This document shows positions 1 to 10,917 of a stretch of 64,000 nt of DNA, one piece after another. The notes beneath the pieces are model-generated. The model saw only the letters and a list, made by a program, of their open reading frames with translations, was not told the DNA's origin and made no database searches. The translations under genes were made by a program, and so were the position numbers. The stretch covers positions 1 through 64,000 of the forward strand of contig CAKZON010000054.1 of NCBI GenBank assembly GCA_937136425.1. The letters are read 5' to 3'. The DNA is from an uncultured Crocinitomix sp. Lineage in GTDB: Bacteria; Bacteroidota; Bacteroidia; Flavobacteriales_D; Crocinitomicaceae. Each line of letters begins with the position of its first letter. Position 1 is the stretch's first letter.

Positions 1-366
1 GTGCATTATCAATCATTGGAAAACTTGAACCGCGCCATTCAGATAATGAACCAAAATATGATGAGGCTATACCTGCAGCTTTGATTTCATTAATATCAAG
101 TTCCTGACTAAATACCATAGGTAGCGTTAAGTCCCCCATATCTCTTGAATCAAAAAATGGCGCTGGTAATAAACTTAAGTCATTATTTATCTTAGTTTTT
201 TTAGTTGATAGTAAAATGAAACTTTTGGAGCTAATTTCAGCCCAAATACTGCTGTCGCTTGGATTGCTGCATGACATTGAAGCATTTCCGACTAACTCAA
301 ACTTAATCTGGTTATAATCGGTAAATAAGCGAGGGTCTAAATTAAAATCAACAAAAGAATATAATC
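1..366 (-). pseudogene. bcsB: Internal fragment of cellulose synthase regulatory subunit BcsB, cut at both ends
   Basis: An uninterrupted minus-strand frame runs off the left edge of the window. Read from about 366 down to 2 it contains, in order, TDYNQIKFELVG, a Cys-x-NP motif, SSIWAEIS, NNDLSLLPAPFFDSRD, LTLPMVF, AAGIASSYFGSL and EWRGSSFP. These match, in the same order, the conserved middle of BcsB, the periplasmic partner of the BcsA cellulose synthase (carbohydrate-binding and flavodoxin-like regions). The similarity is to the proteobacterial type. No BcsB N-terminus or signal peptide lies upstream: beyond about 366 the same frame stays open but is antisense to a DinB-type gene and no longer looks like BcsB. 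The piece is therefore truncated at its 5' side by a junction and leaves the window at its 3' side. No other bcs gene is visible. Confidence 0.75.
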
Positions 367-611
367 CACTTATTAATAAGTCTTTGTCTTTAGAAAATGT
401 TGTTGATGAGTATTTAGAACATGTAAAAGACTTTAATGCTGTGCTGCAAGAAGGCGCACAAATTAATTTGCGTAAAACTAAATGCCCATTATCACTTAGA
501 CCTGTGGTTAAACTAAATCTTGGGGATGCTTTTATTTTTACGGCATTTCATAATGAGCGCCATTTAGAGCAAATTAAGCGTGTAATTCGTTCTTCAAGAT
601 TTCCTAAATAA
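318..611 (+). pseudogene. DinB-family protein, C-terminal part only
   Basis: The plus frame is open from just after a stop at 315-317 to the stop at 609-611. The C-terminal ~80 residues read like the end of a Bacteroidota DinB-superfamily (four-helix, putative metal-dependent) protein: LRKTKCPLSLRPVVKLNLGD followed by the typical FHNERHLEQIKRV, in which the His residues belong to the usual metal-binding set. Family members are about 150-180 aa, so the N-terminal half is missing. Upstream DNA instead encodes a BcsB fragment on the other strand. A TTG at 384 could start a 75-aa product, but this would be a fragment. It converges on the acyltransferase gene, with a short palindrome between them. 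Confidence 0.65.
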
Positions 612-637
612 TTTCAATTTATTGCGGTATTAAGATT

Positions 638-651
638 GCTCAAACTTGAGC
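638..651. terminator. Short palindrome between convergent genes
   Basis: GCTCAAACTTGAGC is a perfect 6-bp stem with a 2-base centre, followed by an AT-rich stretch. It lies between the DinB fragment and the convergent acyltransferase gene. It may act as a weak bidirectional terminator; the stem is short. Confidence 0.3.
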
Positions 652-657
652 TATTAT

Positions 658-1584
658 TTACCTTTTTCCGAATCGTTTCAAAAAACGTTCCTCATGTGCA
701 CTTTGCATTTCTGCAAGGTTTTCAGGAATTTGCTTTTTCCAACGCTTATGTGACCATAACCAAGCAGACGGCTTATCCTGAATATCTTCCTCAAGAAAGC
801 TGATATAATCACTTGTAATTTCCCCATATGGGGCTGAAGATGGGTTTATAGACACCTCTTTAAGCTCAATTTCGTAATGCCCTCTTTTTACCAAATGAAT
901 AACAGCATAAACCACCGCAGCACCTGTTTGATTTGCTAAAATTTCTGCTCCAAAATAAAATGCTGTTTTTTGGTTTAAAAAATCGACCCAATAACAATTC
1001 TCATCTTTTCCTGGAGATTGATCTCCTAAAATTAAAGTTGCCGTTGGCTCTGCAGTTTGTTCTGATAATACTTTTTTATAATTATTGGCATTAACGACTT
1101 TCATTCCGAAACGCTCACGTCTTTCATTAATTTTTTTATCCCAAAACTTATTGGACATTGGCATTCCAATGCCAATAGCTTGATGTTTAAAAACCAAATT
1201 TTGTGCAGTAATTAGCATTTCCCAATTATGATAATGAGATGACAATAACAAAACATCTCTCCCCTCTTCATAAAGTCGATCCATCATTTCTGGATTGCGT
1301 ACGATCATTCTTTTACGAAGAGACTCTTCCGAGATTGTCAAGTTCTTAATTGATTCAGCCAATAAAAAAGTAAGATAACGGTAGAATTCTTTTGCAACTT
1401 TAGTTCGTTCTTTTTTATCTTTTTCAGGAAAAGACTTTGCCAAATTGGCCAGAACTACTTTTTTTCGGTACGGGAAAACGTAGAAAATAAAAAAGTAAAA
1501 AAAGTGCGAAAACAGATATATGAGACCAAATGGCATATAGGACATTGGGCGCACAATACAATAATATAGAATTCTGTTAATCAA
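658..1584 (-). CDS. LpxL/HtrB-family lysophospholipid acyltransferase
   Basis: A 308-aa membrane-associated acyltransferase of the lipid A biosynthesis family. It has an N-terminal hydrophobic segment (about residues 15-40), then the catalytic H(x4)E motif as HYHNWE with His117 and Glu122. A GDQSPGK segment and the C-terminal WLWSHKRWK signature typical of LpxL-like enzymes follow. It probably transfers a secondary acyl chain to a lipid A or other lipid acceptor at the inner membrane; Bacteroidota members of this family may also act on amino-lipids, so the substrate is not settled. It is a single gene on the minus strand, length normal, with no intact partner next to it. Confidence 0.85.
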   Translation of the reverse strand: MINRILYYCIVRPMSYMPFGLIYLFSHFFYFFIFYVFPYRKKVVLANLAKSFPEKDKKERTKVAKEFYRYLTFLLAESIKNLTISEESLRKRMIVRNPEMMDRLYEEGRDVLLLSSHYHNWEMLITAQNLVFKHQAIGIGMPMSNKFWDKKINERRERFGMKVVNANNYKKVLSEQTAEPTATLILGDQSPGKDENCYWVDFLNQKTAFYFGAEILANQTGAAVVYAVIHLVKRGHYEIELKEVSINPSSAPYGEITSDYISFLEEDIQDKPSAWLWSHKRWKKQIPENLAEMQSAHEERFLKRFGKR

Positions 1585-1755
1585 ATTTAACTACTTATGC
1601 TTGTTACGAAGTTATCAATTATCACTTACAAAAATTAACTTGGTTCTCAAATATTCATCAAAAATCATTCCGAGAGAAAAAAAATGAGCACTAACTCATA
1701 CACAACCTCTTATCTTGACAATAACGTTAATTCAATTGATTCTTCTTTTAATACT

Positions 1756-2388
1756 TTATTTATATTTCTCCTTCATTATACCAATCAGTTCAGCAGTAAC
1801 GTCATGTGTTGGTGAGCCGTAATATAGGTTTTGACCTGCTTGGTAAGAAAACACATAATCGTAATCATTTTCTTCAGCAAATATTTTAGACACTTCAGAA
1901 ACTCGCTCAACCATTTTAAGCAATAATTCTTCTTGAGACTTTGCTAGTTCATTTTGAACTTGTTGTTGAAACCTTGAAATTTCTTGCTCTTTTATTTGTG
2001 CTTCATTTTGATATTGCCTTAACTCCGCGGGTAAAAGTCTTGATAGATCTCCCCAACTCTCTTGCCACCTTTGAATCTCTCTCTCTTTACTTCGCATTTT
2101 TGATTCTGCTTTCTTCTGAGCCTCTGCTCCTAGCTCTTTCAAATCTGACATTACTTCTAACCCTCCTATAGAATCAGCTTGAAAATAGCAAATCCTCATT
2201 GTTTTATCATCTGCCGCAAAACTGTTATTCTCATTGCTTAAATCATTTGAATGCTTAAACATAGAGAAATCTTTCATATTGAAGAATTGATCTATCCCCA
2301 TGCTTAACTCAGCTCTCACTAAAAGAAGAATTAAGACAATATTAATTCCGACAAGAATTTTCATATAATTATTTCCTTTAGTTTCCAT
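1756..2388 (-). CDS. OmpH/Skp-like membrane-anchored protein (paralogue B)
   Basis: An OmpH (Skp)-type protein of about 210 aa if it starts at the Met at 2388. This start gives the same METKGN... beginning as the paralogue at 3182-3859; a longer frame up to 2427 adds 13 residues with no counterpart. An N-terminal hydrophobic helix probably anchors it. Next comes the RICYFQADS strand that opens the OmpH core, then a long, highly charged, Glu/Lys/Gln-rich coiled coil, and a C-terminal YDYVFSYQAGQNLYYGSP segment, where the family folds back into its base. Skp-type proteins hold outer-membrane proteins in the periplasm. The two paralogues are strongly alike in the core but differ in the linker after the anchor. 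Confidence 0.7.
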   Translation of the reverse strand: METKGNNYMKILVGINIVLILLLVRAELSMGIDQFFNMKDFSMFKHSNDLSNENNSFAADDKTMRICYFQADSIGGLEVMSDLKELGAEAQKKAESKMRSKEREIQRWQESWGDLSRLLPAELRQYQNEAQIKEQEISRFQQQVQNELAKSQEELLLKMVERVSEVSKIFAEENDYDYVFSYQAGQNLYYGSPTHDVTAELIGIMKEKYK

Positions 2389-2620
2389 AATGTATGGTTT
2401 TAGATTAAGAACAAACAATATCAACAAATGACATAATTTTTTTTACGCGGAGTTTAACGAATTAAAGTAACTAATAGTATAACGAACTACTTATTTGAAT
2501 GACCTATTCTGAGCATTCAAAAAATAATTTTAATTATATAAGTTAAAATAGCTAACAGTTACAAACGGTTAATTGGGTATCAACCATAAAAACTGCGGCA
2601 GTTAATGAATTGGGCTTTGT

Positions 2621-3172
2621 TTAATTATTTGTAAAGTTCAAATCACCTTGCTTCATTTTTTTATAAAAATGAGCAAGCATACCTAGTAGTTGCGAAATGG
2701 CCTGAAAACCTTCTTCTGAAGCCGTGCTAATTTCAGTACCTCTTAGTTTCAATATCATTTTTCCATAAAGGGCATTAAAACCAACCTCAATCAAATTTAA
2801 GTCGCCGCCATTACTTTTATGTTGGAAGTCTTTTAAAATGGGCAAAGCAACCTCAAACGCTTCTAAATAGCGTTTTTCTCGACTAATGTTAATCAAAGTA
2901 TTGTGCAAAAGCAGCAATTCCATTAAAATTTCATTGATATCAGAAACATGTCCTTTCTCTTGCACCCGCTCTTGCCTCATTTTTTTTATGAGCCCTGCAT
3001 ACCAATCAGCATATTGCTGTGCCATGGCTTCGTCTGCAACAAGTGGTTGAATGACAGTGGTTGTAATCTTATCTAAATCGTGATTATTTGCACGAATTAA
3101 ATCTTCTACCTGAAACATATAAACAATATGCTCCGCGATATTATTCTCTTTGGTTCTCTGTGCTATGAGCAT
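2621..3172 (-). CDS. DUF4924 family protein
   Basis: A 183-aa protein with no signal peptide or membrane segment. It begins MLIAQRTKENNIAEHIVYM, which is how I recognise the Bacteroidota family DUF4924; its function is unknown. It is mostly helical and rich in charged residues. It starts only 9 bases after the stop of the OmpH-like gene at 3182-3859, so the two are very likely co-transcribed, and a second OmpH-like gene follows after about 230 bases. The arrangement suggests an envelope-related or housekeeping role, but nothing in the sequence names a reaction. Confidence 0.6.
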   Translation of the reverse strand: MLIAQRTKENNIAEHIVYMFQVEDLIRANNHDLDKITTTVIQPLVADEAMAQQYADWYAGLIKKMRQERVQEKGHVSDINEILMELLLLHNTLINISREKRYLEAFEVALPILKDFQHKSNGGDLNLIEVGFNALYGKMILKLRGTEISTASEEGFQAISQLLGMLAHFYKKMKQGDLNFTNN

Positions 3173-3181
3173 TTATTCTTC

Positions 3182-3859
3182 TTATTCTCCTGCGTCCTCA
3201 GCTCCTTCAGTACCCTCACCTTCAGTCAAAGAAACTTGATTCATTCTGTACTCTTCATTAATCAGGTTTACTAATTGCGCTGTTACATCAAAGTTAGGCG
3301 AACCATAGTATACATTTTGACCTTTTTGGTAAGAAAGTACAAAGTCATATCCATTTTCTTCTGCAAAGGTTTTAGATGCATCTGAAACTCTTGTAATTAA
3401 CTTAAGCATTAAATTTTCTTGCTCCATTGCTAGTTCCATTTGAACTTGTTGTTGGAACATTCCAATTTCTTGCTCTTTTTTCATTGCCTCTTCTTGGTAA
3501 CGTCTTAATTCAGAAGGTAAAAGTTTTGAAGGATCTCCCCAACTCTCTTGCCATCTTTGAATTTCATTTTCTTTACCACGCATTTTTGACTCAGCATTTT
3601 TTTGAGCATCTTCTCCTAATGCTTCCAACTCAGCCATCATTTCAAGGTTATTCAATGAATCTGCTTGAAAATAACAAATCCTCATTGTGCCATCATCTGG
3701 TATAACTGGATCAACAGTACTTGTTGAATCATTTACATCTGCAGTTTCGTCAGAACCTGCACCACTTGGCATCTTTACAAATAAAATAATAACCGCAATG
3801 ATTAGTGCAACATTAATACCTAATGATATTTTAGCTAATGAATTTCCTTTATTTTCCAT
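3182..3859 (-). CDS. OmpH/Skp-like membrane-anchored protein (paralogue A)
   Basis: A 225-aa OmpH-family protein. Residues about 8-28 form a hydrophobic helix with no obvious cleavage site, so it is probably anchored in the inner membrane facing the periplasm. A Ser/Asp/Thr-rich linker follows, then RICYFQADSL, a long charged coiled coil (about 85-165) and the closing YDFVLSYQKGQNVYYGSP segment. The tail is acidic and glycine-rich. It is first in a likely operon with the DUF4924 gene. The chaperone role for outer-membrane proteins is inferred from the Skp family. The paralogue at 1756-2388 probably arose by local duplication. Confidence 0.7.
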   Translation of the reverse strand: MENKGNSLAKISLGINVALIIAVIILFVKMPSGAGSDETADVNDSTSTVDPVIPDDGTMRICYFQADSLNNLEMMAELEALGEDAQKNAESKMRGKENEIQRWQESWGDPSKLLPSELRRYQEEAMKKEQEIGMFQQQVQMELAMEQENLMLKLITRVSDASKTFAEENGYDFVLSYQKGQNVYYGSPNFDVTAQLVNLINEEYRMNQVSLTEGEGTEGAEDAGE

Positions 3860-4003
3860 AATTATTTACTATTAATCCGCGAAAGTAAGAACAATATCTC
3901 AAATAAAGATTGTCTTTGACATGGAATTTGGTATTAAGCTTAATTGTTAAGTTTTTTTAACAGATGCAAAATGGACTAAAAGGAGTAGAAAATGATTCTT
4001 TTT

Positions 4004-4405
4004 TTATGAGGCTAAGATTACTTCATCTAAAGAATAACTAACAAAGTCAAACGGAACTTTTACCATAAAAGCATAGTCCTGCCCTACTTCAAACATATCC
4101 TCATCATCTTCATTATACATCCATTTAATACGAACGTTGTTTTGACTTGCATGCAAATCATTCAGTTTGTATAATAAAAACAATAATCTTTTAGAAGATG
4201 AAATATTGAAATACTCCAAATCAATAGACACTTGAGTTTCAGAATTTGGACGAACAAGATAATCGTCAAACCATTCTAATACTGCACTGTAAAACTCTTC
4301 AGCATCATCTGGAATTGATTTTCCTTTAATGCTGAAAATGCCTTGTTGAGGATTAAAATTAATTCCTGGGGTTTTAGGCGTTTCGGTTATGTACAATGGT
4401 TCCAT
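4004..4405 (-). CDS. SiaC-like regulatory phosphoprotein (DUF1987)
   Basis: A 133-aa cytosolic protein of the DUF1987/SiaC family. Visible family features are the opening ITETPKTPGINFNPQQGIFS, the KGKSIPDDAEEFYSAVLEWFDDYL helix region and the LEYFNISSSKRLLFLLYKL segment; the serines of the latter lie where SiaC is phosphorylated. In Pseudomonas SiaC works with a phosphatase (SiaA) and kinase (SiaB) to control a diguanylate cyclase; in Bacteroidota the partners are usually separate two-component or PP2C proteins. No such partner is adjacent here, so its pathway is not shown. It stands alone on the minus strand. Confidence 0.7.
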   Translation of the reverse strand: MEPLYITETPKTPGINFNPQQGIFSIKGKSIPDDAEEFYSAVLEWFDDYLVRPNSETQVSIDLEYFNISSSKRLLFLLYKLNDLHASQNNVRIKWMYNEDDEDMFEVGQDYAFMVKVPFDFVSYSLDEVILAS

Positions 4406-4543
4406 GTGTTATCGTGGTTTTCGGTGACAATATGACAATTTTAAATTAATCTCTTGCTGCTTTTTCTACTAATCCAGAAATAAACTAGACCAGTACATTA
4501 AAAGCGCAGACTATTTCTTCTATTTAATCTTCATTTTTTACTC

Positions 4544-5431
4544 TTATTTGTTTACGCAAATATCAGATTGGTGATATTCAAGCAATTTAATAGCTGGATA
4601 ACGCAAGATATCTTTCACCAATAAACCAAATTGTGTAGCAACTTTTTGGATGGGTTCCAGATAAACTTGAGCCAATGTTCCACTCAATTTTAATTCACGT
4701 TTTGTACCTTCTTTATAAAGCGGCATTAAATGACGCTTGAAAAATTCAGTAAAATAATTTGATATTAACATTTGAACAGTTTCATGATTGCGATAAGCTG
4801 CCGCTAACTGTACTGTATTTGCAATTTTTTGTAATCCTGCTGAACTATATCCTAATTTAGGATCAGAATAATAAGTGCTTGTAAAATTTTCTCTATTCGA
4901 TTGAAAAAGAGCTGCGATTTCAGTTTGCAAGGCTTCAGGCAGTTCCCCATTCAACCAAGCCGACACAACTCTTTTACCTAATTCATATCCTCCACCCAAG
5001 TCATCAATTAAATAACCGTACCCTCCATTTCTATCAGTAACACTCTCTCCATTATAATAACCAGCAACTCCGCCTGTTCCTAAAATGGCAAACACTCCGC
5101 TTTCTTTATTATAAAGTGCTCGTGCTGATCCTAAAATATCATCAAATACAGTTACTTCAACTTCAAAATATTCTTGAAAGGTATTAATGAGTTCGGTTTT
5201 CTTAATTTCAGTTCCTAAACCACTTCCATAAAAGAAAACCTTGTCCTCTTTGTGGATAGTAATGGTTTTTAATTCTTGTAAAAATGCTTTACTTTCTCGA
5301 TTAGGATTATAACCTGAAAGATTGAATTCTTGAACCTCATTTCCAACATCATTATTCTTTTCTCCAAGACACTCCTGCACCAATAAGGTGGTTTTTGTGC
5401 TTCCGGATTCGAATAATAATAATTTAGCCAT
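4544..5431 (-). CDS. BadF/BadG-type ATPase, N-acetylglucosamine kinase-like
   Basis: A 295-aa sugar-kinase-like ATPase of the ASKHA fold. The N-terminal MAKLLLFESGSTKTTLLV is the phosphate-1 loop (the usual D-G-G-S-T-K-T is E-S-G-S-T-K-T here). A GTGGVAGYYNG segment and GYGYLIDDLGGGYELGKR match the phosphate-2 and sugar-binding region of Bacteroidota GlcNAc-kinase-like proteins. Family members phosphorylate amino sugars released during cell-wall turnover; the exact substrate here is inferred. Length fits the family. It is not tightly linked to neighbours. Confidence 0.7.
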   Translation of the reverse strand: MAKLLLFESGSTKTTLLVQECLGEKNNDVGNEVQEFNLSGYNPNRESKAFLQELKTITIHKEDKVFFYGSGLGTEIKKTELINTFQEYFEVEVTVFDDILGSARALYNKESGVFAILGTGGVAGYYNGESVTDRNGGYGYLIDDLGGGYELGKRVVSAWLNGELPEALQTEIAALFQSNRENFTSTYYSDPKLGYSSAGLQKIANTVQLAAAYRNHETVQMLISNYFTEFFKRHLMPLYKEGTKRELKLSGTLAQVYLEPIQKVATQFGLLVKDILRYPAIKLLEYHQSDICVNK

Positions 5432-5585
5432 GATAGCAATGTTTACGACAAAGTTTTGTAAAAGTTTCTATTCTCGGATTTTCAAAACTTTATGAATCAA
5501 TATCTAAGAAGATATCAATTCATGAACTTGCATGGTTTAACCATCAAGCATCCCTTATTAACACCCCTCTAAATATATACAAAAA

Positions 5586-5620
5586 AGAAAGCGACCTCCC
5601 CTATTGGAAGGCCGCTTCAA
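5586..5620 (-). terminator. Terminator after the aconitase gene
   Basis: Read on the minus strand, a GC-rich stem (AAGCGGCCTTCC pairing with GGGAGGTCGCTT, loop about 5 bases, one or two bulges) is followed by TTCTTTTTTG. It lies directly downstream of the stop of the 753-aa aconitase. Confidence 0.75.
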
Positions 5621-5642
5621 CTAATTATATTCTTATTTTGAA

Positions 5643-7904
5643 CTATCCCTTTTTCAAGAAATTAAGAGCTGATCCTGCTTTGAACCAATCAATTTGAGAA
5701 TCATTATAAGTATGATTCAACATAATTGTATCAGTAGAGCCATCTGCATGAACAACCTCTAGAGTTAATTGCTTATCTGGAGCAAAGGCTGCTAAATCAG
5801 TAAAGTTGAAAGTATCATCCTCCTGAATTTTATCATAGTCAGCTTCGTTTGCAAAAGTTAAACCTAACATCCCTTGTTTTTTCAAGTTAGTTTCATGAAT
5901 ACGAGCAAAAGATTTAACAATAACTGCCATAACCCCTAAGTGACGTGGCTCCATTGCAGCATGCTCACGTGAAGAACCTTCCCCATAATTGTGATCACCA
6001 ACAACAACTGATGCAACACCAGCAGCTTTATATGCTCTTGCAGTATCTGGAACCGCTCCAAATTCACCCGAAAGTTGATTTTTAACACGGTTAGCTTCTC
6101 CGCCAAATGCGTTAATTGCACCAATTAAACAGTTATTTGAAATATTATCTAAATGTCCTCTATACTTTAACCATGGCCCAGCCATTGAAATATGATCTGT
6201 AGTACATTTACCGTGTGCTTTAACTAATAGTTTAGCTCCAATAATATTTTTACCATCCCAAGGAGAAAAAGGTGTTAATAATTGTAGTCTTTCAGAAGTT
6301 GGACTAACAATTACTTCTACTCCCGAACCATCCTCGGCAGGTGCTTGGTATCCATTATCTTCAACGTCAAATCCTTTTGCTGGCAATTCAACACCCGTTG
6401 GGTCAGCCAACATAACTTCTTCACCGTCCTTATTAGTTAAACTATCCGTCATTGGATTAAAATCTAACTTACCTGAAAGTGCTACTGCAGCAACCATTTC
6501 TGGAGATGTTACAAAGGCCATAGTATTTGGATTACCATCAGCACGTTTTCTAAAGTTTCTGTTGAATGAATGAACAATTGAATTCACTTCTTGCTTATCT
6601 GCTCCAGCTCTATCCCACTGACCAATACAAGGTCCACATGCGTTTGTAAATATAGTTGTACCGTTTAATGAATTGAAAATATCAATCAATCCATCTCTAT
6701 CAGCAGTGTATCTTACTTGCTCTGATCCAGGATTAATTCCTAGTTTAGCTTTTGCTTCAACACCTTTATCTGTAGCATCTTTAACAATAGAAGCAGCTCT
6801 TGTCAAATCCTCATAAGATGAGTTAGTACAAGAACCGATCAATGCCCATTCAATATCTGTTGGCCATCCATTTTCTGCAGCTGCAGTTTTCATTTCAGCA
6901 ACTGGTGTTGCTAAATCTGGCGTAAACGGTCCATTTAAATGCGGTGTTAATTCATCTAAGTTAATTTCAATTAATTCATCAAAATATTGCTCTGGATTTG
7001 CATATACTTCAGGATCTCCTGTTAAGTGCTCAGCAACTTTATCAGCAGCTTCTACAACATCCGCTCTTCCTGTAGCCGTTAAATAACGTCTCATTGAATC
7101 ATCATAACCAAAAGTTGAAGTTGTTGCCCCAATTTCAGCTCCCATATTACAAATCGTTCCTTTTCCTGTACAAGAGATTGAAGTTGCTCCTTCACCAAAA
7201 TACTCGACAATTGCACCAGTTCCACCTTTAGCAGTAACAATACCTGCCACTTTTAAGATAATATCTTTAGGCGCTGTCCAACCGCTTAATTTTCCGGTTA
7301 GTTTTACCCCAATTAATTTTGGAAATTTCAGTTCCCAAGGCATACCAGCCATAACATCAACAGCATCTGCTCCTCCAACACCAATTGCAACCATTCCTAA
7401 TCCTCCAGCATTCACTGTATGCGAATCAGTTCCAATCATCATTCCTCCTGGGAATGCATAATTTTCTAAAACAACCTGATGAATAATTCCTGCACCCGGT
7501 TTCCAAAACCCAATTCCGTATTTATCGCAAACTGAACTTAAAAAATCAAAAACTTCACCATTTGTATGGTTTGATCTTTCCATATCTGCAGCTGCTCCGT
7601 CCCTTGCTTGAATCAAGTGATCTGCATGTGCAGTAGATGGTACAGCAACTTTAGATTTACCTGCTTGCATAAATTGCAAAAGGGCCATTTGTGCAGTTGC
7701 ATCCTGCATAGCCACACGATCAGGATCAAAATCTACATAAGACTTTCCTCGAGTATGAGGAGCTGTTAATGGATTATCCCATAAGTGGGTATATAGAATT
7801 TTTTCCGCTAAGGTCATTGGTTTACCTAAAACTTCTCTCGCCTTTGCGATACGTTCTGGATAAATTTCATATACCTTTTTGATCATGTCAATGTCGAATG
7901 CCAT
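5643..7904 (-). CDS. Aconitate hydratase, mitochondrial-type (IRP/AcnA superfamily)
   Basis: A 753-aa TCA-cycle enzyme that interconverts citrate and isocitrate through cis-aconitate, using a [4Fe-4S] cluster. Cluster-ligating cysteines are seen at 359 (in IGSCTNSS) and at 423 and 426 (in [10 protein letters not shown]). The substrate-binding MIGTDSHT segment (about 156-163) and the C-terminal swivel domain with [10 protein letters not shown] are also present. It is closest to the eukaryotic mitochondrial type rather than the 890-aa AcnA/IRP1 type. It lies just downstream of AcnB in the same orientation, but a terminator and ~235 bases separate them, so they may be separate transcripts. Confidence 0.93.
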
Positions 7905-8139: not shown

Positions 8140-10917
8140 TTAGCTCACTAATTTCTTTTGAGAGGGTTTAAACTTAGTTAGAATAATTCCTTCAACAGCT
8201 GCTTCATATTCTTCCATTGTTGGAGTTCTACCTAAAATTGTAGACAACACTACAACAGGAGTAGACGATAACAAAGACTCTCCTTTTTTCTCCTTAGAAT
8301 CTTTTACAACTCTTCCTTGAAACAAACGAGTAGAAGTTGCAATTACTGTATCTCCAGGCTCAGCTTTTTCTTGATTTCCCATGCACAAATTACATCCTGG
8401 GCGCTCTAAGTAAAGCATATTTTCATACTTTGTTCGAGCTGCTCCTTTAGGGGCATTGTCATCAAACACAAACCCTGAATATTTCTCTAACACTTCCCAA
8501 TCTCCCTCGGCCTTTAACTCATCAACAATATTATAAGTAGGAGGCGCTACCACTAACGGAGCATTAAATACAACCTTACCTTGTTGCTTTTCAATATTCT
8601 TTAGCATTTGAGCTAAAATTTTCATATCGCCTTTATGAACCATACAAGATCCAACAAAACCTAAATCAACTTTTCTTGTACCACCATAAAAAGATAATGG
8701 ACGAATAGTATCATGCGTATAACGCTTAGAAACATCATCATTATTCACATCCGGATCAGCAATCATAGGCTCAGCAATCTCATCCAAGTCAATTACCACT
8801 TCTGCATGATATTTAGCATTAGCGTCTGGTCTTAATGTAGGTTTTGCTCCAGACTTAACTTCCTCAATTCTGGTATTTGCCTTATCAACTAAACCTTTTA
8901 AGACTTGCTTTTCATTATCCATTCCCTTTTCAATCATGATTTGGATACGATCTCTTGCAATTTCTAATGATTCAATTAAAGTCTCGTCTTCTGAAATACA
9001 AATAGATGCTTTCGCTTTCATTTCAGCTGTCCAATCAGTAAATGTAAATGCCTGATCTGCAGTTAAAGTTCCAATATGAACTTCAATTATTCTTCCCTGG
9101 AATACATTTTCACCACCAAACTGTTTCAACATTTGTTGCTGTGTCGCATGCACCACATCACGAAAATCCATGAAACTTCTCATATCACCTTTAAAGGTAA
9201 CCTTTACAGATTGTGGAATTGGCATTGTAGCTTCTCCTGTAGCCAATGCTAATGCAACCGTACCTGAATCTGCTCCAAAAGCAACTCCTTTAGACATACG
9301 TGTGTGAGAATCACCTCCAATAATGATATCCCAATCACTTACGGTAATATCATTCAGTACTTTATGAATTACATCAGTCATAGCATGGTAATTCCCTTTA
9401 GGGTCGCGACCAGTGATTAATCCAAAGTCATTCATAAACTTCATTAACCTTGGAATGTTTGCTTTTGACTTATCATCCCAAACAGAAGCTGTATGGCAAC
9501 CTGATTGGTATCCTCCATCAACAATTGGAGATATAACTGTAGCAGCCATCATCTCTAACTCTTGTGAGGTCATTAATCCGGTTGTATCTTGAGATCCTAC
9601 AATATTCACTTCTACACGAGCATCAGAACCTGCGTGCAACACTTTACCTGGTGTATTGCCTACTGCGTTTTTGTTGAATATTTTTTCAACAGCAGTTAAG
9701 CCTTGCCCTTCAATAGAGATTTCTTTTGAAGTTGCATAAACTTGAGGCACCTCTATTCCTAGCACCTTGGCTGCAAATGTTTGTAATTTTTTTCCAAAGA
9801 CAACAGCATAAGATCCACCTGCTTTAATAAACTCCATTTTTTGAGGAGTTAATGCAGTTGAAATATCTTTTAATTCTTTATCTCCGTTGTAAAGTTTCTT
9901 TGTTTTTGTATTTATTGTTAATACCGTCCCTGTATCAACAGAATAAGTTTGCTCTAATACTGGTTCACCATCTTCATCAACCACCGTATTTCCATCAACA
10001 TCTTTTTTCTTTTCCCAGTTTTTAAGGTCAATTCCGATTCCTCCAGTTACTCCAACTGTTGTTAAGAAAATTGGAGAAATACCATTTGTCCCTGCAATAA
10101 CAGGCGCTATATTAATAAATGGAACGTATGGACTAGAAGAAACACCTGTCCATAAAGCCACGTTATTTACTCCTGACATTCTAGAAGAACCAACTCCCAT
10201 TGTTCCTTTTTCGGCAATCAACATTACGCGTTTGTCAGGGTGTTGCTCTTTTAACGCAATTAGCTCATTTTGCATGTCTTTATTGTGTTCAAAAAGACAC
10301 TGTCCGTGTAATTCACGATCTGATCTTGAGTGAGCATCACTTCCTGGAGAAAGTAAATCTGTCGAAATATCCCCGACTCCAGCTATAAATGTAACTACTT
10401 CAATCTTCTCTTCTACCTCTGGTAACTTTGTAAAAAACTCTGCTTGCGCATAACTTTCAATAATCTCTTTAGCGATTGTATTACCTGCTTTATATGCATT
10501 TTCTAAACGTTCTGTATCAGCCTCATAAAGGAATACTTGCGTTTTCAAAACTTCTGCTGCTTTCGCAGCAATTTCTGCGTCATCTCCTAATGCTAAATCT
10601 AATAACACATCAACAGAGGGTCCACCCTTCATATGTGATAATTGCTCAAAAGCAAAATCCAATGTAATTTCTTCAACTACTGATTCTCCTAAAATAATTT
10701 CCTTTAGAAATTTTGATTTTACACCAGCAGCGCTCGTCGTACCAGGAAGAACGTTATAAATAAAGAAATTAAGAGAATCTTCTCGATCAGGATTATTAAC
10801 ATCCTTAATCTGTCCTATGATTTCTCCAATCAATTCAGCACCATCTATTGGTTTTGGGTGAAGCCCATTCCCTTTTCGGTCTTCAATTTCTTTAATGTAA
10901 TCTTTATATGTGTTCAT
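8140..10917 (-). CDS. acnB: Bifunctional aconitate hydratase 2 / 2-methylisocitrate dehydratase
   Basis: A 925-aa AcnB-type aconitase. The N-terminal HEAT-like domain and the swivel domain precede the catalytic domains, the reverse of the AcnA order. Cluster cysteines are visible at about 758 (in GFVGSCMVHKGD) and at 842 and 845 (in PGCNLCMGNQ). GGDSHTRMSKGVAFGADSG supplies the substrate-binding motif. It acts in the TCA cycle and can also act in the methylcitrate cycle. E. coli AcnB is 865 aa, so there are insertions here, including an acidic stretch around residues 305-330. Finding both aconitase types side by side is usual in this phylum. Confidence 0.93.
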   Translation of the reverse strand: MNTYKDYIKEIEDRKGNGLHPKPIDGAELIGEIIGQIKDVNNPDREDSLNFFIYNVLPGTTSAAGVKSKFLKEIILGESVVEEITLDFAFEQLSHMKGGPSVDVLLDLALGDDAEIAAKAAEVLKTQVFLYEADTERLENAYKAGNTIAKEIIESYAQAEFFTKLPEVEEKIEVVTFIAGVGDISTDLLSPGSDAHSRSDRELHGQCLFEHNKDMQNELIALKEQHPDKRVMLIAEKGTMGVGSSRMSGVNNVALWTGVSSSPYVPFINIAPVIAGTNGISPIFLTTVGVTGGIGIDLKNWEKKKDVDGNTVVDEDGEPVLEQTYSVDTGTVLTINTKTKKLYNGDKELKDISTALTPQKMEFIKAGGSYAVVFGKKLQTFAAKVLGIEVPQVYATSKEISIEGQGLTAVEKIFNKNAVGNTPGKVLHAGSDARVEVNIVGSQDTTGLMTSQELEMMAATVISPIVDGGYQSGCHTASVWDDKSKANIPRLMKFMNDFGLITGRDPKGNYHAMTDVIHKVLNDITVSDWDIIIGGDSHTRMSKGVAFGADSGTVALALATGEATMPIPQSVKVTFKGDMRSFMDFRDVVHATQQQMLKQFGGENVFQGRIIEVHIGTLTADQAFTFTDWTAEMKAKASICISEDETLIESLEIARDRIQIMIEKGMDNEKQVLKGLVDKANTRIEEVKSGAKPTLRPDANAKYHAEVVIDLDEIAEPMIADPDVNNDDVSKRYTHDTIRPLSFYGGTRKVDLGFVGSCMVHKGDMKILAQMLKNIEKQQGKVVFNAPLVVAPPTYNIVDELKAEGDWEVLEKYSGFVFDDNAPKGAARTKYENMLYLERPGCNLCMGNQEKAEPGDTVIATSTRLFQGRVVKDSKEKKGESLLSSTPVVVLSTILGRTPTMEEYEAAVEGIILTKFKPSQKKLVS

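Follow-up and report, generated by a model that had tools for sequence, protein, structure and literature searches.

At the left end of the window, the whole 64,000-nucleotide stretch of DNA analysed here, a piece of a bcsB gene of proteobacterial type meets the C-terminal part of a host dinB gene. Does this junction record a gene transfer, or was it made during library preparation or assembly? The window comprises bases 1 to 64,000 of contig C54 (111,391 bp), so the two share their first base. The assembly holds 122 contigs (6.09 Mb) and is given as 99.89% complete and 1.82% contaminated; its genes look like those of a Bacteroidota. Judging from the sequence comparisons below, we estimate at roughly 96% the probability that the first 337 bases of C54 are a chimeric contig end, an artefact of library or assembly, and not a gene transfer.

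The BcsB fragment at base 1 of the contig

Translation of the minus strand from 367 to 2 is free of stops, and residues 7–119 match the Pfam BcsB family (PF03170) with an E value of 3.4e-40 (138.4 bits; cut-off 21), over only 113 of the 606 profile positions (86–198). A search of solved structures (16 sequences listed, E up to 10) returned six BcsB-type chains with E values of 4.3e-24 to 1.1e-21 over residues 7–121; the other ten had E values of 0.76 or worse. These matches bear out the initial annotation, which had recognized the middle of BcsB on this strand. The extent that it gave, 366 to 2, fared less well: the fragment is real, but it is recognizable only to about 353–362. DNA matches of the window to four Aliivibrio genomes stop at 353, 359, 359 and 362, and residues 1–6 of the translation agree with an Aliivibrio sifiae locus (L023) at three of six positions. 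As delimited by profile, DNA and amino acid comparison, the foreign tail (1..337, minus strand) is an internal, in-frame, Aliivibrio-like bcsB fragment without stops. It touches the physical contig end, being 337 bases long and ending at C54 base 1. We also considered base composition as evidence and discarded it as uninformative (GC 0.357 over bases 1–300, against 0.25–0.39 over bases 1–6000).

If the host owned a bcs operon of proteobacterial type, the contig might simply run into it, and the open, well-conserved reading frame fits that explanation. Against it, the C54 fragment is the single match to the BcsB family in the 6.09 Mb of this 99.89% complete genome, and the cellulose synthase family PF03552 gave one match there, below the cut-off. 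The 116-residue BcsB piece had no relative in 58 other genomes of the host genus, family and order (1 of 59, its own genome). The piece shares 87–89% DNA identity with three Aliivibrio genomes and 78% with a fourth, and base 338 has another contig, C4, as its true neighbour, as described below. Given the single BcsB match, the lack of relatives and the PF03552 match below the cut-off, we dropped a host-owned operon as extremely improbable. Among the observations that would speak against a chimera, the initial annotation had named an upstream continuation of bcsB within this genome; with this single BcsB match, the assembly contains no such continuation. A plasmid origin was likewise dropped, as a search of the plasmid collection in distant mode with window 1–420 gave no match.

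The missing half of the host dinB gene

The plus strand of 330–611 includes the C-terminal half of a DinB-family protein, matching positions 64–128 of the 128 in the DinB_2 profile with an E value of 2.1e-4 and a score of 22.2 bits, just below the curated cut-off of 24.8. With this match and intact 194-residue homologues in relatives, the host-like DinB-family C-terminal piece described earlier is real. The host part of the gene on C54 (338..611, plus strand) includes the stop codon, and the next host gene is of the Lipid A biosynthesis acyltransferase family (Lip_A_acyltrans; 658..1584, minus strand), which also adjoins dinB in three relatives (G005, G006 and G003). There, dinB is whole (194 amino acids) and lies between the acyltransferase gene on its 3′ side and a divergent gene, presumably permease-like, on its 5′ side. 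Further into the window, two paralogous minus-strand proteins are encoded at 1756–2427 and 3182–3859 (77% DNA identity over 183 bases), which we take from their look to be OmpH/Skp-like; a gene for 183 amino acids lies between them and is found near such genes in the same three relatives.

To locate the start of host DNA, we searched with window 1–2000 in 40 genomes of the host genus, family and order, its own included, with seven candidates scored per genome. Matches were found in 23 of the 40. Eight relatives have matches extending as far as the dinB piece, and these start at 338 (G005, G006, G001, G003 and G007), 339 (G002), 345 (G004) and 354 (G016), and among the matches listed only the genome itself covers 1–337. 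When its own contigs were searched with the dinB–permease stretch of G005, two places were found, C54:338–623 and C4:8214–9736. Contig C4 (9,737 bp) carries the N-terminal part of dinB from base 9411 and terminates within the gene. Its final 16 bases (9722–9737) match window 338..353 exactly, and this overlap is the true continuation of dinB. Joining C4, less its last 16 bases, to C54 from base 338 yields a 194-residue protein that is identical to the DinB of G005 (L003) at 186 of 194 positions, of G006 (L004) at 178 and of G003 (L009) at 151. For the joined DNA, a single alignment to L003 (3,679 bases, 87.6%) extends over the join, as do single alignments to L004, L009 and L006. Because the join restores both the 194-residue protein and an unbroken DNA alignment to relatives, dinB is very probably unbroken in the organism, with C4 as the true left neighbour of base 338. 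The gene had been described as truncated; this is so on C54, but not in the genome, where the N-terminal half ends C4.

An Aliivibrio-like donor and the sequence at the join

The initial annotation had proposed a search for the donor lineage with bases 1–340, and the comparisons below identify the tail as Aliivibrio-like. We scanned for donors with peptide patterns against genome_contigs, a method that reaches close relatives only. Four of the 55 stretches returned encode a relative of the BcsB piece, and each is from Aliivibrio. Amino acid identity over 122 residues was 89% for two A. sifiae loci (L023 and L024) and 87% for an Aliivibrio sp. locus (L025); for A. fischeri (L026) it was 73% over 121 residues. 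In DNA, window 337–2 is identical to L023, L024 and L025 at 294, 298 and 296 of 336 positions (87.5–88.7%). Third codon positions hold 31 of the 42 differences from L023, 27 of the 38 from L024 and 24 of the 40 from L025, a bias that would be expected of a working bcsB gene in a related species. In searches of the four whole Aliivibrio genomes, the DNA matches had 89, 88, 87 and 78% identity. No Aliivibrio locus was identical to the tail, the nearest one compared being 89% identical in DNA.

The likeness to Aliivibrio continues past the tail into host sequence. Over window 338–359, bcsB agrees with the host at 20 of 22 bases in L024, 19 in L023 and 18 in L025, three relatives of the donor, not the donor itself, and at only 11 of 22 in A. 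fischeri L026. Over 338–353 the corresponding counts were 15, 14, 13 and 11 of 16. By comparison, among 359,168 random host 22-mers, agreement with the L024 22-mer never exceeds 16 bases. The false join sits inside 338–353, or inside the wider 22-base stretch 338–359 that resembles Aliivibrio bcsB too. Because of this likeness, and with no random host 22-mer exceeding 16 bases, the join was most likely made through a short sequence that host dinB shares with bcsB of the donor. The breakpoint was thought earlier to be unmarked by any repeat; this part of the claim does not hold, as 338–353 repeats the last 16 bases of C4 and 338–359 resembles Aliivibrio bcsB.

A short shared stretch is also usable by illegitimate recombination, and the junction is continuous in the assembled sequence. 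Both observations are compatible with a real recombination or horizontal transfer that inserted part of an Aliivibrio bcsB in the host's dinB, whether in every cell of the culture or only in some. However, the intact dinB path from C4 to C54 is present in the same assembly, the piece runs to the contig end while BcsB has no other match in the genome, and the end of another contig, C72, shows the same anatomy. Foreign DNA acquired by transfer should be flanked on both sides by host DNA. Here host DNA lies on one side only, which makes transfer less probable without deciding the matter, since sequence beyond a contig end is out of sight. We consider real recombination very unlikely, and no finding here requires it. 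There is a similarly slight chance that, in a minority of cultured cells, host dinB recombined illegitimately with bcsB of a co-cultured Aliivibrio through the 16–22-base stretch, and that both loci were assembled.

If, as we favour, C54 begins with a chimeric end, the join could have formed in the wet laboratory, by a template switch at the shared stretch, or purely computationally, by a false overlap. A stretch with 20 of 22 bases in common (L024), a likeness above 16 bases that 0 of the 359,168 random host 22-mers reached, could prime a template switch; conversely, C4 stops just 16 bases past the join, an end that branching at the shared stretch, during assembly or contig extension, could produce. 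We regard these two routes as evenly balanced.

A probable second chimeric end and the survey of contig ends

A search for further gene halves missing at contig ends yielded a second case in the same assembly. Contig C79 ends with the 15 bases of C72:116–130, and placing the two contigs side by side opens a frame of 757 codons, in a host gene that we take by its look to be caspase-like and whose N-terminal part lies at that end of C79. The join aligns in one piece with locus L212 of G001 (3,390 bases, 75.8%) and L213 of G005 (2,160 bases, 84.8%). Homology of C72 starts at 116 and 118 in the two of nine other genomes that have the locus (seven had no match), and the first 115 bases of C72 fall outside the match to both. 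The minus strand of C72:3–131 encodes a piece of a proprotein-convertase P-domain (E 4.8e-9). Bases 1–115 of C72 (L097) are thus a probable second chimeric contig end, carrying a 115-bp P-domain scrap. A search of two Aliivibrio genomes gave no match to this scrap, so one Aliivibrio contaminant does not explain the tails of both C54 and C72. Weak matches were found in the genome itself (38%, E 0.06) and in G005 (35%, E 0.21). Thirteen plasmid records matched, from Pseudoalteromonas (4), Vibrio (4), Streptomyces (3), Anabaena (1) and Microvirga (1), all at less than 60% identity; the best-ranked had 53.5% and the highest 59.4%, over 74% of the query. From these similarities the C72 scrap may be foreign or of host lineage, either origin being compatible.

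In the survey we examined 229 of the 244 contig ends, of which four (two contigs of N only) were unusable, leaving 225 counted. The terminal 14 bases of one end were sought in the first 1,500 bases of another. The scan gave 179 rows, about 150 of which belong to a single short-period repeat family found at six ends, and ten of which are 77-base end overlaps. Six rows had a tail of at least 100 bases beyond the overlap (L and R, left and right ends; overlap and tail in bases): C101L/C66R (17, 343), C4R/C54L (16, 337), C79R/C72L (15, 115), C11L/C94R (15, 824), C26L/C8L (14, 281) and C11R/C39R (14, 279). A control of 20 replicates gave 2.1 rows of at least 14 bases and 0.7 contig-end matches of at least 16 bases per replicate. 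A 16-base match between contig ends is therefore not rare alone; what is telling is a read-through gene with whole counterparts in relatives. Two pairs, C4/C54 and C79/C72, rebuild host genes of this kind. The last three of the six pairs look like chance, as judged by eye from their open frames and in line with the 2.1 rows of the control. The left end of C101 (L126) and the right end of C66 (L091) have near-identical long frames, presumably NRPS-like, and this pair probably marks a place where a repeat within a peptide synthetase cluster broke the contig. Sixteen pairs of contig ends were joined, and most gave some spanning frame, which by itself proves nothing; long frames that reach only a little way on one side also arose from several of the chance-like pairs.

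Among the other overlaps, C92L/C46L (17, with a tail of 28) is apparently a normal overlap that contains a mismatch, and C62R/C40R had overlaps of 54 and 39 with tails of 40 and 55. An overlap of exactly 77 bases recurs in five contig-end pairs, suggesting that a de Bruijn assembler was run with a word length close to 77. In nine further pairs the extreme ends share 11 to 20 bases, and these may be low-coverage breaks or chance. The ends of C20, C29, C60, C86, C113 and C119 share a short-period repeat, with overlap lengths that step by 7, and this repeat probably causes the contig breaks there.

Origin of the join and comparison with known chimeras

Because the tail starts at contig base 1, the other half of dinB lies on C4 with an exact 16-base overlap and the Aliivibrio-like bcsB lacks any remainder, a chimeric contig end, which the initial annotation had offered beside a non-homologous recombination, is well supported. 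Three features expected of a chimera were found: a tail at a contig end, the native locus elsewhere in the assembly, and a foreign lineage without the remainder of its gene. We judge C54 1..337 to lie outside the host chromosome. In the origin that we propose, trace Aliivibrio DNA in the culture, the library or the sequencing run would have supplied bcsB reads. Host dinB and this bcsB would be nearly identical over a short stretch within 338–359, and there one may have been joined to the other, either by template switching while DNA was amplified or by a spurious overlap when contigs were assembled or extended; the correct path from C4 to C54 base 338 would have been left as a contig break. 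The real chromosome would then carry an intact dinB, flanked as it is in relatives, and no bcsB.

Such an artefact is ordinary, and we claim no new biology for it. Left untrimmed, the record invites annotators to enter a proteobacterial cellulose-synthase gene and a spurious gene transfer and to call dinB broken; it needs trimming (C54:1–337). The test used here, which asks whether a host gene cut short on one contig has its other half at the end of another, with a short overlap that lies within the suspect contig and not at its end, could find such tails elsewhere.

The C54 piece resembles the four Aliivibrio bcsB loci at 73–89% amino acid identity, and differs from them in being a fragment only, identical to none. 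Chimeric contamination of assemblies, in which sequences of two organisms are joined in one contig, is described in section 2.7 of PMC10978663. C54 shares with the chimeras of that section the presence of two organisms' sequences in one contig; relative to the account given there, it is distinguished by a 337-bp scrap of a bacterial gene, a short shared sequence as the joint, and a correct neighbouring contig that could be identified.
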